Assembly: GCF_003390325.1 (NCBI RefSeq)
Contig: NZ_QUOK01000004.1
Location: 124,001-188,000 of the forward strand
DNA: 64,000 nucleotides
Direction of reading: 5' to 3'
DNA from: Rhodohalobacter sp. SW132
Lineage (GTDB): Bacteria > Bacteroidota > Rhodothermia > Balneolales > Balneolaceae
Every line of letters begins with the position of its first letter. Positions within the stretch are counted from its first letter, which is position 1. This document shows positions 16,832-22,989 of this stretch, one piece after another. The notes beneath the pieces were generated by a model that worked only from the letters and a program-made list of their open reading frames with translations, did no database searches and was not told the DNA's origin. A program made the translations under genes and the position numbers.

Positions 16832-17404
16832 ATGAACAGTTCAACCACAAATACAGACGTAACATCACTACTTCATCAGCTCGAAGATGAAGGTACAAAG
16901 GCTTATAATAAACTTTTCCCGCTCATCTATAATGAACTGAAAGACATTGCTTCAGTTCAAATTGCATCGGAACGAAACGATCTTACACTGAACAGAACAG
17001 ATCTTGTGCATGAAGTATATATGAAATGGCTTCAGCAAGAAGATCTTGAATGCAATAGTAAAAAACACCTCATGAGGCTTGCATCTAAAGCAATGCACCA
17101 GATTCTTGTGGACTATGCCCGAAAAAAGCTGGCTTCGAAACGGGGAAGCGGTGCAGTGAAAATTGAGCTGGATGAAGAGACACTTGATGTCAAAGAGGCT
17201 AAGGAATTTCTGGAACTCGATCACGCCTGTAAAGAACTTCGCATGATTGATGAGCGTATGTACGATATTGTAGAATTGAAGTATTTCAGCGGTCTTTCAG
17301 TTTGCCAGGTTGCCGAAACTCTTGATATTTCAACAAGTACCGTAAACCGGGAATGGAAAAAAGCCAAAACGCTGCTCTACATGAAATTAAATAAAGAAGA
17401 ATAA
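16832..17404 (+). CDS. ECF-family RNA polymerase sigma factor (TIGR02999-like)
   Basis: The 190-residue protein has region 2 (residues 20-90, with LNRTDLVHEVYMKWLQQ and a following ILVDYARKKLASKRG) and region 4 (about 130-187, MYDIVELKYFSGLSVCQVAETLDISTSTVNREW split over two helices of a helix-turn-helix). The motifs are those of the sigma subgroup often called Sig-70_X6, common in Acidobacteria, Planctomycetes and Balneolota, and usually encoded beside a serine/threonine kinase. No kinase or anti-sigma factor gene is next to it here: galE is upstream and a terminator then a convergent peptidase gene follow. Its regulation therefore remains open. Confidence 0.9.
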   Translation: MNSSTTNTDVTSLLHQLEDEGTKAYNKLFPLIYNELKDIASVQIASERNDLTLNRTDLVHEVYMKWLQQEDLECNSKKHLMRLASKAMHQILVDYARKKLASKRGSGAVKIELDEETLDVKEAKEFLELDHACKELRMIDERMYDIVELKYFSGLSVCQVAETLDISTSTVNREWKKAKTLLYMKLNKEE

Positions 17405-18767: not shown

Positions 18768-19205
18768 TTGAAAAACACATTTCAGCCGAATGAATTTTTC
18801 CATAAAACCTCTGTTGATATACGTTTTCGCGACCTGGACCCTCTTCAGCACGTAAATAACGCCGTTTTTAATACCTATTTCGAGGAAGCCCGCATCCGCT
18901 TTATTCAAACTATTCCGGAACTGCATTCATCCATGCAAAATGGTTTCAGTTTTGTATTGGCACATCTCGATCTCAAGTACATCAAACCTGTACTTTACGA
19001 TGAAAAAATTTCTGTTTACAGTTCGCTAAAAGAAGTTGGCAACAGCAGTGTAACAGGAATTCAGGCGATATTTAACCAAAAAGGTGAAATCAAAGCGGTT
19101 GCACAGACAACCGGTGTCTGGTATGATGTAAAGAAAAAGCGGCCTGCAAAACTGCCGGATATTTCTAATCTCGATCAGTATTTTTTAAAATCTTCAGATG
19201 GATAA
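18768..19205 (+). CDS. acyl-CoA thioesterase, 4HBT family
   Basis: The 145-residue hotdog protein carries the 4-hydroxybenzoyl-CoA thioesterase motif RFRDLDPLQHVNNAVF (residues 19-34) with the catalytic aspartate at D24 and the HVNN turn. It is like YbgC/FadM-type enzymes. The start is a TTG at 18768; no ATG lies before the motif in this frame. The last 8 bases overlap the HD-hydrolase gene, so translation is probably coupled. The substrate is not predictable. Confidence 0.88.
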   Translation: MKNTFQPNEFFHKTSVDIRFRDLDPLQHVNNAVFNTYFEEARIRFIQTIPELHSSMQNGFSFVLAHLDLKYIKPVLYDEKISVYSSLKEVGNSSVTGIQAIFNQKGEIKAVAQTTGVWYDVKKKRPAKLPDISNLDQYFLKSSDG

Positions 19206-20448
19206 AAGCAGCCAGTATAAAATTTTCAGTGACCCTATTCACGGATTTATCACAGTTCCAAAAGGTGTGATATTGAAGCTCATCGACCATCCTTATGTTC
19301 AGCGTTTACGCAGAGTACGGCAACTGGGGTTAGGATACCTTGTGTTTCCTGCTGCAGAGCACTCCCGATTCTCCCATGCTCTCGGCGCTCTTGAACTCTG
19401 TCAGCGTGTCCTGAAAAATTTAGTTGAAAAAGATACAACTATCAGTGATGCGGAAATCAAGGGAACTTTAATTGCTATTTTGCTGCATGATGTAGGACAT
19501 GGTCCCTTTTCACATACTCTTGAGCACACTTTAATTGATGATTTCAATCATGAGAAAATGAGCCTGAAAATCATGCATCAGTTAAACAAAGAGTTTGACG
19601 GTGAGCTAACGACTGCTATCGATATTTTTACTGATCAGTATCCAAAGAAATTTCTCCACCAGCTGATATCTTCACAGCTTGATATTGATCGTCTCGACTA
19701 CCTGAAGCGGGACAGTTTTTTTACGGGGGTATCAGAAGGTTCGGTTGGTATCAACCGTATTCTGAAAACAATGCGCATTTTAAACGGAAATGTTGTTATT
19801 GAGAAGAAAGGGATATATGCGGTCGAAAACTATATTCTCTCCCGCCGATTGATGTATATGCAGGTATATCTGCACAAAACTGTTCTTAGCGCGGATTCCC
19901 TTCTGAAACAAATATTCCGAAGAGTTGAGTATTTACTTCAAAATGGTGAATCACTCCATACACCTTCCTGGCATCTGGAGTATTTTTTAACAGAAAAGAG
20001 ATCAGCCAAAAAGTCGATTTCAGATGTAATAATGAAACATTATATGGCACTGGATGATCATGATGTTTTAATTAGTATTAAAGCATGGGCAGAGCAATCG
20101 GACCCAATTCTGCGGGACCTCTCCATCCGATTTCTTCAGCGGGATCTCTTCAGATCGACTTTTTTACCTCAAAATAAGATTGATAAGCAGATCGGGAAAT
20201 TTACATCTCAGACCAAACAGGTTTTAAAACAAAAGGGGCTCCCCTTCGATGATGAATCGGTTTCATATTACATCGATATAGACAAGAGTTATAGTGAAGC
20301 TTACAAATATGAAAATGAGAGTATCTGGATCCTGGAAGGGAAAAGTAAAGCAGTGGAATTTTCAAAAGCTGTGGATACCCGGCATATCATAGCTCTCACG
20401 CAACCGGTAGTTAAACCATATATAGTTCACCTGAAGGAGCTAAATTAG
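19198..20448 (+). CDS. HD domain phosphohydrolase, SAMHD1/dGTPase-like
   Basis: The 416-residue protein has the SAMHD1-like layout: IFSDPIHGFITVP at the N-terminus, then H60 in RFSHALGALEL, the metal pair H97-D98 in LLHDVGHGPFSH and a distal aspartate in LDIDRLDYLKRD (D162-D167). Related enzymes hydrolyse dNTPs to deoxynucleosides and triphosphate, so a role in nucleotide pool control is possible, though many homologues in Bacteroidota are uncharacterised. It overlaps the thioesterase gene by 8 bases and ends 11 bases from the convergent hybrid sensor gene without an obvious terminator. Confidence 0.87.
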   Translation: MDKSSQYKIFSDPIHGFITVPKGVILKLIDHPYVQRLRRVRQLGLGYLVFPAAEHSRFSHALGALELCQRVLKNLVEKDTTISDAEIKGTLIAILLHDVGHGPFSHTLEHTLIDDFNHEKMSLKIMHQLNKEFDGELTTAIDIFTDQYPKKFLHQLISSQLDIDRLDYLKRDSFFTGVSEGSVGINRILKTMRILNGNVVIEKKGIYAVENYILSRRLMYMQVYLHKTVLSADSLLKQIFRRVEYLLQNGESLHTPSWHLEYFLTEKRSAKKSISDVIMKHYMALDDHDVLISIKAWAEQSDPILRDLSIRFLQRDLFRSTFLPQNKIDKQIGKFTSQTKQVLKQKGLPFDDESVSYYIDIDKSYSEAYKYENESIWILEGKSKAVEFSKAVDTRHIIALTQPVVKPYIVHLKELN

Positions 20449-20459
20449 CAGGGAGAATC

Positions 20460-21569
20460 TCAATTTGGGATATTTGATGAAACATTGATCCCGATTTTTG
20501 CCAGCAACTCCTCTTCTTTAAATGGCTTCTGCATCAGGTCGTCAAACCCTGCATCAATTAACTCACCTCTTGAATATCGTTGAGTTGCTGTTACAGCAAT
20601 AATCTTTGATGCTGAAAGGCTTGAAGCCCCATTTCCGCGTATAACCTTAACTGCTTCAATCCCATCCATTACAGGCATACTCAGGTCCATCAGAATCATA
20701 TCTGCTTTCCAGTTTTCAAGAATCTGCAGTGCTGCCTCTCCATTCGATGCCTCCTGTACATCAATTCCATATCTTTTCAGCATAAGTTTGAGGAGCGTTC
20801 TGTTTATGGAAACATCATCAACAACTAATATTTTCTTGATATTATTCGAACCCAAATCCGAACCCGTTTTTTGTAAATCCACACGGACTGAATCCTGTTC
20901 AGCGCCAAGCAGATTTTTGATTTTACCATCTAAAAGCTTTGAGTGATAAATAATTTTTTCAAGAAGCTTATACTGTTCATCTGTGAGGTCAGCATCTTTG
21001 CTTAATAGTTGTGAAAAACCGATCACAGCGTGCAGTGGAGTTTTTAATTCGTGAGACAAATCGACTCCGCCAGATTCATTCTCTGCTTTTTTTAAATCGG
21101 GAAGAGTCTTCAAATACCTTCCAACAATATTTCGAGCTGCATCCTTTACGGTAAAATACTTTACCATATAAATTTTATCATCTCCCCCCTGTATTTCAAT
21201 TACAGAGGAACTGTTCTCATGGAAACTTCGCGAAAGTTTTTTAAGCTGTGGTATCTCGTTTATATTTTTCCCGGCAAGCGGCAACTCATTCTCATTAAAT
21301 AAAGCTGAAAAACCAAAGTTTACGTAACGAATAAATCCCTCCGAATCGATAATGGCATTTCCTGTACCGGAATGATCCAGTATGGATTTAAGAAACGTAG
21401 TTTTCGCCTCTTCTGATAATTTCAGATCATTTGATCTATTCCCATTTCGGACATAGATAAAGAGAATAACGGACAATACAATTACCAAGACCAGCAGAAT
21501 CAACTGGGCAGGAATACCGTACAGCCCGATCTCGTTAAGAATAAAAAAGTAAGACAAATTTTCAGCCAC
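20460..21569 (-). CDS. membrane hybrid sensor with HisKA and receiver but no HATPase domain
   Basis: Domains in order over 369 residues: a single membrane segment (about 22-40), a PAS-like domain (about 58-150, NAIIDSEGFIRYVNFGFSAL split at the core), a HisKA dimerisation helix pair with H173 in LSHELKTPLHAVIGFSQLL, a linker of only about 25 residues, and a complete receiver (about 246-362) with acidic D251/D252, phospho-acceptor D295 in LMDLSMPVMDG, and K348 in QKPF. The ATP-binding HATPase_c domain that normally follows HisKA is missing: no N, G1 or G2 box. The frame is continuous and both flanking domains are intact, so this looks like a genuine architecture. It cannot phosphorylate itself from ATP by the usual mechanism. 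Confidence 0.9.
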   Translation of the reverse strand: MAENLSYFFILNEIGLYGIPAQLILLVLVIVLSVILFIYVRNGNRSNDLKLSEEAKTTFLKSILDHSGTGNAIIDSEGFIRYVNFGFSALFNENELPLAGKNINEIPQLKKLSRSFHENSSSVIEIQGGDDKIYMVKYFTVKDAARNIVGRYLKTLPDLKKAENESGGVDLSHELKTPLHAVIGFSQLLSKDADLTDEQYKLLEKIIYHSKLLDGKIKNLLGAEQDSVRVDLQKTGSDLGSNNIKKILVVDDVSINRTLLKLMLKRYGIDVQEASNGEAALQILENWKADMILMDLSMPVMDGIEAVKVIRGNGASSLSASKIIAVTATQRYSRGELIDAGFDDLMQKPFKEEELLAKIGINVSSNIPN

Positions 21570-21667: not shown

Positions 21668-22144
21668 TTAAGAGCGGTTCCGAACATACTTTAAGAACGT
21701 AAGTGAGCCACTTTCCTGTCTGAATTTTTCTTTCCATACCTCACCTATTTGATCTCTGTATTCAGGAAAAAAAGTATCTCCATCGTAGGCTTCATCGATC
21801 TCTGTGATAATCAGCTCATCGGCCATGTTTATTGTTTGTCGGTAGATCTCTCCGCCTCCAATAACAAACACCCGCTCTTTATCCGATAAGTGATTCAATG
21901 CGTCATCAATTGATGAGAATGTCGGGACATGGGGATATGATTGCGATCGGCTTAAAACCACGCCTTCCCGACCCGGGAGTAGTTTTTCTCCAAGTTCTTC
22001 AAATACAATTCTGCCCATCAACAAGGTATGCCCCATAGTCGTTTGTTTAAAAAACTTCAGATCTTCCGGGTAATGCCATGGAAGTTCTCCATCTTTACCG
22101 ATAACCAGGTTGGGATCGTGGGCTGCAATTAAAGTTAAAATCAT
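21668..22144 (-). CDS. folA: dihydrofolate reductase
   Basis: FolA reduces dihydrofolate to tetrahydrofolate with NADPH, regenerating the cofactor consumed by thymidylate synthase. The 158-residue protein has the normal length and motifs: IAAHDPNLVIGKDGELPWHYPEDLKFFK with the acidic active-site E27/D28, MGRIVFEELG, and VFVIGGGEIYRQ. It overlaps the thyA stop by 4 bases (ATGA), the classical thyA-folA arrangement. It is followed after 98 bases by the hybrid sensor gene on the same strand. Confidence 0.96.
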   Translation of the reverse strand: MILTLIAAHDPNLVIGKDGELPWHYPEDLKFFKQTTMGHTLLMGRIVFEELGEKLLPGREGVVLSRSQSYPHVPTFSSIDDALNHLSDKERVFVIGGGEIYRQTINMADELIITEIDEAYDGDTFFPEYRDQIGEVWKEKFRQESGSLTFLKYVRNRS

Positions 22145-22989
22145 ACGGCTACCGGAAACCGGATTTTATCGTGTGGATTGTAGTTTAAAAGTTCAAAATC
22201 TGAAAATTCAAGCTGGTTGAGCGGTTTTTTCTGAATTTTGAGTTCAGGGAGTTTCCTGGGTTCTCTCTTTAATTGCTCCTTCAGGCCTTCCACGTGATTT
22301 TCATATATATGTGCATCTACAATTGTATGTGCAAATACTCCCGGTTTCAGGTTTGTTTCTGCCGCAATTGCCATCGTTAATGCGGAATAACAGGCCAGGT
22401 TGAATGGTATACCTAAAGCAATATCTCCGGATCGCTGTGTAAGGTGGCAATTCAGCCGGCCATTCGAAACATTAAAAATATACATCACGTGGCATGGTGG
22501 TAATCTCATTTCATCGAGCAGCCCCGGATGCCATGCACTCACAACTATACGGCGGCTATTGGGATTTTTTTTAAGCATATCAACTGCCCGCTGTACCTGG
22601 TCATATTCATCATAGGCCCATTTTACGTTTTCATCTGTACCTTTCCCGGGATATGAAGCGCCGCTTTCGCTTTTCAGCGCGGGAAAACGTCTCCAGAGTG
22701 TTGGATAGATCGGCCCCACATACCCGTCATCATCGGCCCATGCATCCCAAATATGGCAATCATTTTCATCTCTTAACCATCGGATGTGATCTTCTCCTCT
22801 CAGATACCAAAGTAATTCAAGAATCACAGATCGAAAGAACACTTTTTTTGTCGTCAGAAGTGGAAATCCTTCTGCCAGGTCAACTTTATAATGTTCAGCG
22901 AAACACGAAATTGTAGGAATTCCCGTTCGATTCTCTTTTATAACACCATTATCAAGTACGTTTTTAACAAGATTGAGATATTGCTTCAT
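22141..22989 (-). CDS. thyA: thymidylate synthase
   Basis: ThyA methylates dUMP to dTMP with methylenetetrahydrofolate. The 282-residue protein shows the folate/dUMP motifs NRTGIPTIS, the catalytic cysteine C166 in RLPPCHVMY, the RSGDIALGIPFNLA loop and the DAHIYENHVEG motif. Length fits the E. coli-type enzyme with a small insertion around residues 100-125. It lies 63 bases after rnc and is overlapped by folA, so DNA precursor synthesis sits at the end of the lipid/ribosome gene run. Confidence 0.97.
   Translation of the reverse strand: MKQYLNLVKNVLDNGVIKENRTGIPTISCFAEHYKVDLAEGFPLLTTKKVFFRSVILELLWYLRGEDHIRWLRDENDCHIWDAWADDDGYVGPIYPTLWRRFPALKSESGASYPGKGTDENVKWAYDEYDQVQRAVDMLKKNPNSRRIVVSAWHPGLLDEMRLPPCHVMYIFNVSNGRLNCHLTQRSGDIALGIPFNLACYSALTMAIAAETNLKPGVFAHTIVDAHIYENHVEGLKEQLKREPRKLPELKIQKKPLNQLEFSDFELLNYNPHDKIRFPVAV

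Follow-up and report, generated by a model that had tools for sequence, protein, structure and literature searches.

A gene on the reverse strand of the window, the 64,000-nucleotide stretch of Rhodohalobacter sp. SW132 analysed here, encodes a protein that carries the sensor, HisKA and receiver parts of a hybrid histidine kinase and lacks its ATPase domain, HATPase_c (Table 1). Sequence comparison suggests, with a probability of roughly 0.5, that this protein is a membrane-anchored node for ATP-free phosphotransfer between histidine and aspartate, derived from a hybrid kinase that shed HATPase_c. Both phosphate-carrying sites are intact, and the protein probably either relays or strips off phosphate that comes from other kinases.

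Table 1. Features of the HATPase-less gene and its neighbours (window positions)
Feature	Position	Strand	Evidence and remarks
Whole gene, TM-PAS-HisKA-REC protein without HATPase_c	20460..21569	-	ORF, Pfam, orthologs; 369 aa, GTG start
Single transmembrane (TM) helix, residues 19-42	21444..21515	-	AlphaFold helix (low confidence); conserved hydrophobic segment in orthologs
PAS domain, about residues 58-157	21099..21398	-	Weak Pfam PAS; PAS-like strands in model
HisKA / DHp domain, residues 170-221	20907..21062	-	Pfam PF00512, E 5.8e-11; two helices in model
H173 codon, predicted phospho-accepting histidine	21051..21053	-	Invariant in 15/15 orthologs
25-residue linker at HATPase_c position	20832..20906	-	Fast-evolving, disordered
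Receiver domain, residues 247-359	20493..20831	-	Pfam PF00072, E 6.2e-25
D295 codon, predicted phospho-accepting aspartate	20685..20687	-	Invariant in 15/15 orthologs
HD-domain phosphohydrolase gene (neighbour, left slot border, convergent)	19198..20448	+	Pfam HD, HD_assoc_2; synteny
folA-like (DHFR) gene (neighbour, right slot border, upstream, same strand)	21668..22144	-	ORF, synteny
thyA-like gene (neighbour, overlaps folA)	22141..22989	-	ORF

The layout proposed by the sequence-only reading, a membrane segment followed by PAS, HisKA with H173, about 25 residues and a receiver with D295, was borne out by Pfam and AlphaFold. So was its claim that HATPase_c is missing with no sign of a frameshift: the reading frame is open over all 369 residues, HATPase_c has no Pfam match in the protein at E<=1, and the model contains no ATPase fold. 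H173 lies within SHELKTPL and D295 within LMDLSMP, and the Pfam borders leave a gap of 25 residues between HisKA and the receiver. The PAS signal, from residue 59, is weak in the window copy (E 0.03) and reaches 2.3e-6 in one ortholog. The AlphaFold model, run with the orthologs as alignment, has a transmembrane helix at 19-42, PAS strands at 71-155, DHp helices at 171-190 and 197-220, a disordered linker at 223-241 and a receiver at 246-359; with a mean pLDDT of 68 and a pTM of 0.43, the relative placement of these domains is unreliable. An ATPase domain hidden in the linker was ruled out, as the linker is 25 residues long and disordered and no ATPase fold appears in the model. A structure search gave, among the matches listed, receiver domains alone, and a search of the genome contigs with the single protein gave just two remote HisKA matches.

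Set against the definition of a hybrid histidine kinase, the protein has a HisKA domain with its phospho-accepting histidine (PF00512 in 14/14 orthologs, the histidine in 15/15) and an intact C-terminal receiver (D251, D252, D295, T327 and K348 invariant in 14/14), and lacks HATPase_c with its N, G1 and G2 boxes. From the missing HATPase_c it follows that ATP use should be impossible for it. It agrees with the "possible incomplete histidine kinase" type, a sensor plus HisKA with a conserved histidine and no HATPase (PMC5847659). A DivL-type pseudokinase is marked by the absence of the phospho-accepting histidine, and H173 is invariant here.

This architecture is conserved, a point that the sequence-only reading had left open. 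When related genomes were searched, the window protein found full-length relatives of equal length. We then ran a profile of the HisKA-linker-receiver part over 92 genomes of the family; one contiguous match to the whole profile was found in 15 genomes (E 4e-89 to 2e-77) and a receiver-only match in 15 (E about 1e-41 to 1e-45), with the kinase of G075 scoring 4e-40. The HATPase-less HisKA-receiver form is present in 15/92 genomes from six genera (g1, g2, g9, g10, g13 and g20), with identity down to about 31%. HisKA and Response_reg were matched in 14/14 scanned orthologs, and HATPase_c was not among the Pfam families listed for these 14 (E<=1). In the wider set HATPase_c was found in 10 members, equal to the number of syntenic kinases in that set. 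From the H-box to the receiver DD motif there are 73-79 residues in 15/15 HATPase-less proteins versus 244-252 in the syntenic kinases, shorter values for two of the latter being taken as pattern matches ahead of the receiver. Chance, an assembly error and a local deletion were ruled out, the arrangement being common to 15 genomes. Two findings would have spoken against a conserved HATPase-less class, HATPase_c in all close relatives and free variation at H173 or D295; instead the close relatives lack the domain, the more distant syntenic relatives carry it, and both residues are invariant in 15/15.

Some copies depart from the common form. The PAS domain has been lost as well in G004, and in G003 (L033 7987-9205) the TM segment is out of frame with PAS-HisKA-REC, reflecting either a real frameshift, which would leave a soluble form, or an assembly error. 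Most of genus g20, and G001 too, lack the HATPase-less gene, whose function is therefore dispensable. Outside the family, a 296-genome sample of the phylum gave one other contiguous HisKA-REC protein among the matches listed, a soluble 222-aa protein without HATPase from another family of the class (L182 4316-4984 on the minus strand, G271:C5), and apparently a separate case. The window genome encodes a second HATPase-less HisKA protein (L127 3752-6643, minus strand, G000:C8), composed of a two-component regulator propeller, a Y_Y_Y domain and a C-terminal HisKA (SHELRGPL) that ends the protein.

The gene occupies a chromosomal slot between the HD gene and a pair of genes that, on recognising their sequences, we take to be folA-like and thyA-like. 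The slot was collected via the HD gene from most of the family and its contents were read. In g6, g11 and g14 it holds a TM-PAS-PAS-HisKA-HATPase-REC protein of 765-780 aa; in part of g4, a soluble HisKA-HATPase-REC protein of 385-407 aa, truncated in one copy where the contig ends; in the remainder of g4, a receiver alone, of 136-159 aa (L082, L083, L089, L090 and L102); and in the carriers among g1, g2, g9, g10, g13 and g20, the HATPase-less form. Most other genomes have the slot without any such gene. In the outgroup family f5, hybrid kinases that have HATPase_c are encoded within a few kilobases of the HD gene, and in G038 between the HD gene and folA. The soluble slot kinases of G079 and G033 (L097 1-1065 and L105 4399-5553) have a changed G2 box, YKGFGMATCK, and their kinase activity is perhaps being lost. 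The G021 slot (L073 1631-2260) contains an unrelated 210-aa ORF, presumably akin to a REP-associated transposase, as we recognise it. An ordinary ECF-type sigma factor is encoded a few genes away in the window (16832-17404; Pfam Sigma70_ECF, E 2.9e-41).

Phylogeny points to a loss of the ATPase domain. In a tree of the receivers (113 columns, moderate support), 14/14 HATPase-less copies fell into one clade (bootstrap/SH-aLRT 90/90), which fits one ancient loss. This clade was sister to the full, soluble and receiver-only forms (92/87), among which the receiver-only genes made a clade of their own (100/98) adjoining the soluble kinases. In a midpoint-rooted tree of the HD gene the HATPase-less group was not a single clade, a result compatible with the receiver tree given the uncertain root. 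The simplest history is that HATPase_c would have been lost once from a hybrid histidine kinase, in an ancestor of several genera, and that HisKA and HATPase_c would have been lost separately in the receiver-only lineage. Its polarity comes from the receiver tree and from HATPase_c being, as a rule, part of a hybrid kinase. Where the sequence-only reading allowed that the ATPase had been lost or had never been there, the syntenic kinases and the receiver tree speak for loss, a single one on the present data, and against "never had".

The HATPase-less gene has been maintained by selection. Nearest pairs differ at 0.13-0.27 nonsynonymous differences per site, far below the saturated synonymous value (pS 0.74-0.83), indicating purifying selection. 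Ranked by rate, H173 and T327 are among the slowest 2% of sites, K348 among the slowest 4%, D251, D252 and D295 6% and T177 10%, and the rate of E174, the H+1 position, was average (47%). The residue at H+4 is T or N in 15/15 HATPase-less copies. At H+1, 11/15 have E or D and four have N, N, S and Q; these four belong to one subclade, indicating one event, not four. By comparison, H+1 is E in 9/9 slot kinases with a readable H-box, and E or D in 19/20 other HisKA kinases of the window genome. Mutagenesis of HisKA kinases has shown that the acid at H+1 is needed for kinase activity alone, and the T/N at H+4 for phosphatase activity alone (PMC3510030). The receiver changed in the other subclade, where the beta5 aromatic switch residue became Leu (11/15 copies); all slot kinases and all receiver-only genes have Tyr there. 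Loss of the beta5 aromatic was noted in Sma0114, which was placed among intermediary receivers that pass phosphate on and do not drive output (PMC9981736). Judged by these residues, each subclade has shed one trait of ordinary kinase-to-output use and the phosphate-carrying residues have been retained.

A conserved histidine together with an absent ATPase domain is compatible with a role as a DHp-type histidine phosphotransferase. In the phosphotransfer reading, D295 would be charged by another kinase or by a small phosphodonor, the phosphoryl group would pass from D295 to H173 inside the dimer and from H173 to the aspartate of a separate response regulator, or the flow could be reversed, and the PAS/TM part might gate it. 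Such a node would do the work of Spo0F (receiver) and of Spo0B (DHp phosphotransferase) within a single chain, or resemble a PhyT equipped with its own receiver. In the window genome Hpt was matched just once, within an 855-aa frame, which leaves its hybrid kinases without obvious Hpt partners; circumstantially, a DHp-type phosphotransferase would be useful in a genome with one Hpt domain. Extending this, a lineage-wide, signal-gated, ATP-free membrane node that combines Spo0F and Spo0B equivalents might supply the missing histidine phosphotransfer step to the hybrid kinases of this one-Hpt genome, a possibility we offer tentatively. Against the phosphotransfer reading, a partner kinase or target regulator was not found, the gene can be dispensed with, as g20 and G001 show, and an acidic residue persists at H+1 in most copies.

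The main rival is that the protein serves as a phosphatase or phosphate sink, its DHp domain using the H-box T/N, under PAS control, to dephosphorylate the protein's own receiver or a partner regulator, with no forward relay. We consider this rather unlikely, although the T/N at H+4 is kept nearly as well as H173, so a phosphatase fits that pattern equally. Mutants in E+1 keep phosphatase activity (PMC3510030), and Galperin et al. suggest a phosphatase role for archaeal HATPase-less proteins (PMC5847659). Weighing the other way, H173 is more constrained than T177, though the need for the histidine in phosphatase activity varies among kinases, and PhyT showed phosphotransfer whereas the expected phosphatase activity was not detected (PMC5898713). 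Of the roles listed by the sequence-only reading (acceptance of phosphate in trans, reverse transfer, phosphatase, decoy), a pure decoy is disfavoured by the invariant H173 and the T/N at H+4, and relay and phosphatase are inseparable by sequence.

That the protein acts mainly by dimerisation appears improbable. It would form heterodimers with a complete kinase, either to have H173 phosphorylated in trans or to inhibit that kinase, or would bind a phosphorylated regulator as DivL does. The DHp is a dimerisation domain, and DivL is a kinase fold turned regulator sensor (PMC4211667); but DivL lost its histidine whereas H173 is invariant, and a pure decoy would have no need of an intact H-box or of the five intact receiver residues. 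A split ATPase partner was also not evident among the short HATPase-only frames of the window genome, which comprise two RsbW-type anti-sigma lookalikes and one fragment. As the window's stretch of contig C4 contains no HATPase match either, a split kinase with HATPase in trans nearby was rejected.

A soluble HisKA-HATPase protein elsewhere in the genome (L131 416-1318, plus strand, G000:C2) has Cys in place of the phospho-accepting histidine (LKCDLRSPL) and an intact paralog at G000:C7. Of the six genomes that have a close homolog, five carry the HATPase-less gene too (p 0.0003 across the family but 0.04 within the clade, with G108 as an exception), and the histidine is kept in both close homologs whose H-box was read, the G000:C7 paralog and that of G012. 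With p just 0.04 in the clade, the exception and the retained histidines, this paralog was not supported as a partner.

Very unlikely, and disfavoured by the sequences, is a relic of stepwise kinase decay, from the full kinase through the HATPase-less and receiver-only forms to complete loss, in which hardly any function would persist: the slot does contain receiver-only genes in some genomes and nothing in most, and the TM segment of the G003 ortholog lies in a different frame, but purifying selection and intact motifs extend over six genera, and the receiver-only genes, as a clade of their own, are not where the HATPase-less lineage ends.

HisKA proteins without an ATPase domain are often named truncated kinases or misannotated as kinases. 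Such proteins have already been catalogued, and what stands out here is an unusually clear origin from a hybrid kinase: across related genera, one slot contains the complete kinase, the form without HATPase_c or just a receiver. The division among the H-box residues is the one that mutagenesis predicts, the kinase residue being freed in one subclade and the phosphotransfer/phosphatase residues kept. Matched orthologs of both sorts, kinase and non-kinase, make the role of such proteins directly testable.

Judged by sequence, the syntenic hybrid kinases (G008, G083, G026, G013, G028 and G016; soluble in G006, G075, G077, G033 and G079) are the nearest relatives found for the HATPase-less proteins. 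They share the slot, HisKA, and a related receiver, and the long ones also have TM and PAS; unlike the HATPase-less form, they carry HATPase_c between HisKA and the receiver, with E at H+1 where the H-box is readable and Tyr at the receiver switch site. As for more distant systems, PhyT is not known to have a fused receiver, and Spo0B and ChpT retain a remnant of an ATPase domain. The sequence-only reading's "distinct kind of phosphorelay node" was too strong, given the HATPase-less HisKA proteins catalogued in archaea (PMC5847659) and the known kinase-derived phosphotransferases Spo0B, ChpT and PhyT (PMC5898713). The archaeal "HisKA, no HATPase" proteins and REC-PAS/GAF-HisKA regulators such as AF_1472 likewise combine a HisKA histidine with sensor domains and, in some, a receiver; they are a separate group whose functions have not been studied (PMC5847659), whereas the window protein has a TM anchor and a documented hybrid-kinase origin at the same locus. 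DivL resembles the HATPase-less proteins as a repurposed kinase fold whose CA domain is dispensable, but is without the phospho-accepting histidine that is invariant in them (PMC4211667); as DivL lost this residue, a DivL-like sensor role is less likely for the window protein. Spo0B and ChpT, as cited in PMC5898713, are dimeric, kinase-derived DHp proteins that perform phosphotransfer and do not use ATP, as proposed here; unlike the window protein they are soluble, with the receiver in separate proteins. PhyT, which acts in the stress response of alphaproteobacteria, is a membrane protein that has an HRxxN box and whose ATPase domain is degenerate; it was called a phosphatase first and later shown to be a phosphotransferase (PMC5898713). 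Like the HATPase-less proteins it is membrane-anchored and kinase-derived, and its non-acidic H+1 matches the N/S/Q subclade; unlike them, it retains an ATPase domain, though a degenerate one, and it is partnered by a separate receiver protein, SdrG (PMC5898713). PhyT is the best precedent for an ATP-free phosphotransfer role of the window protein.
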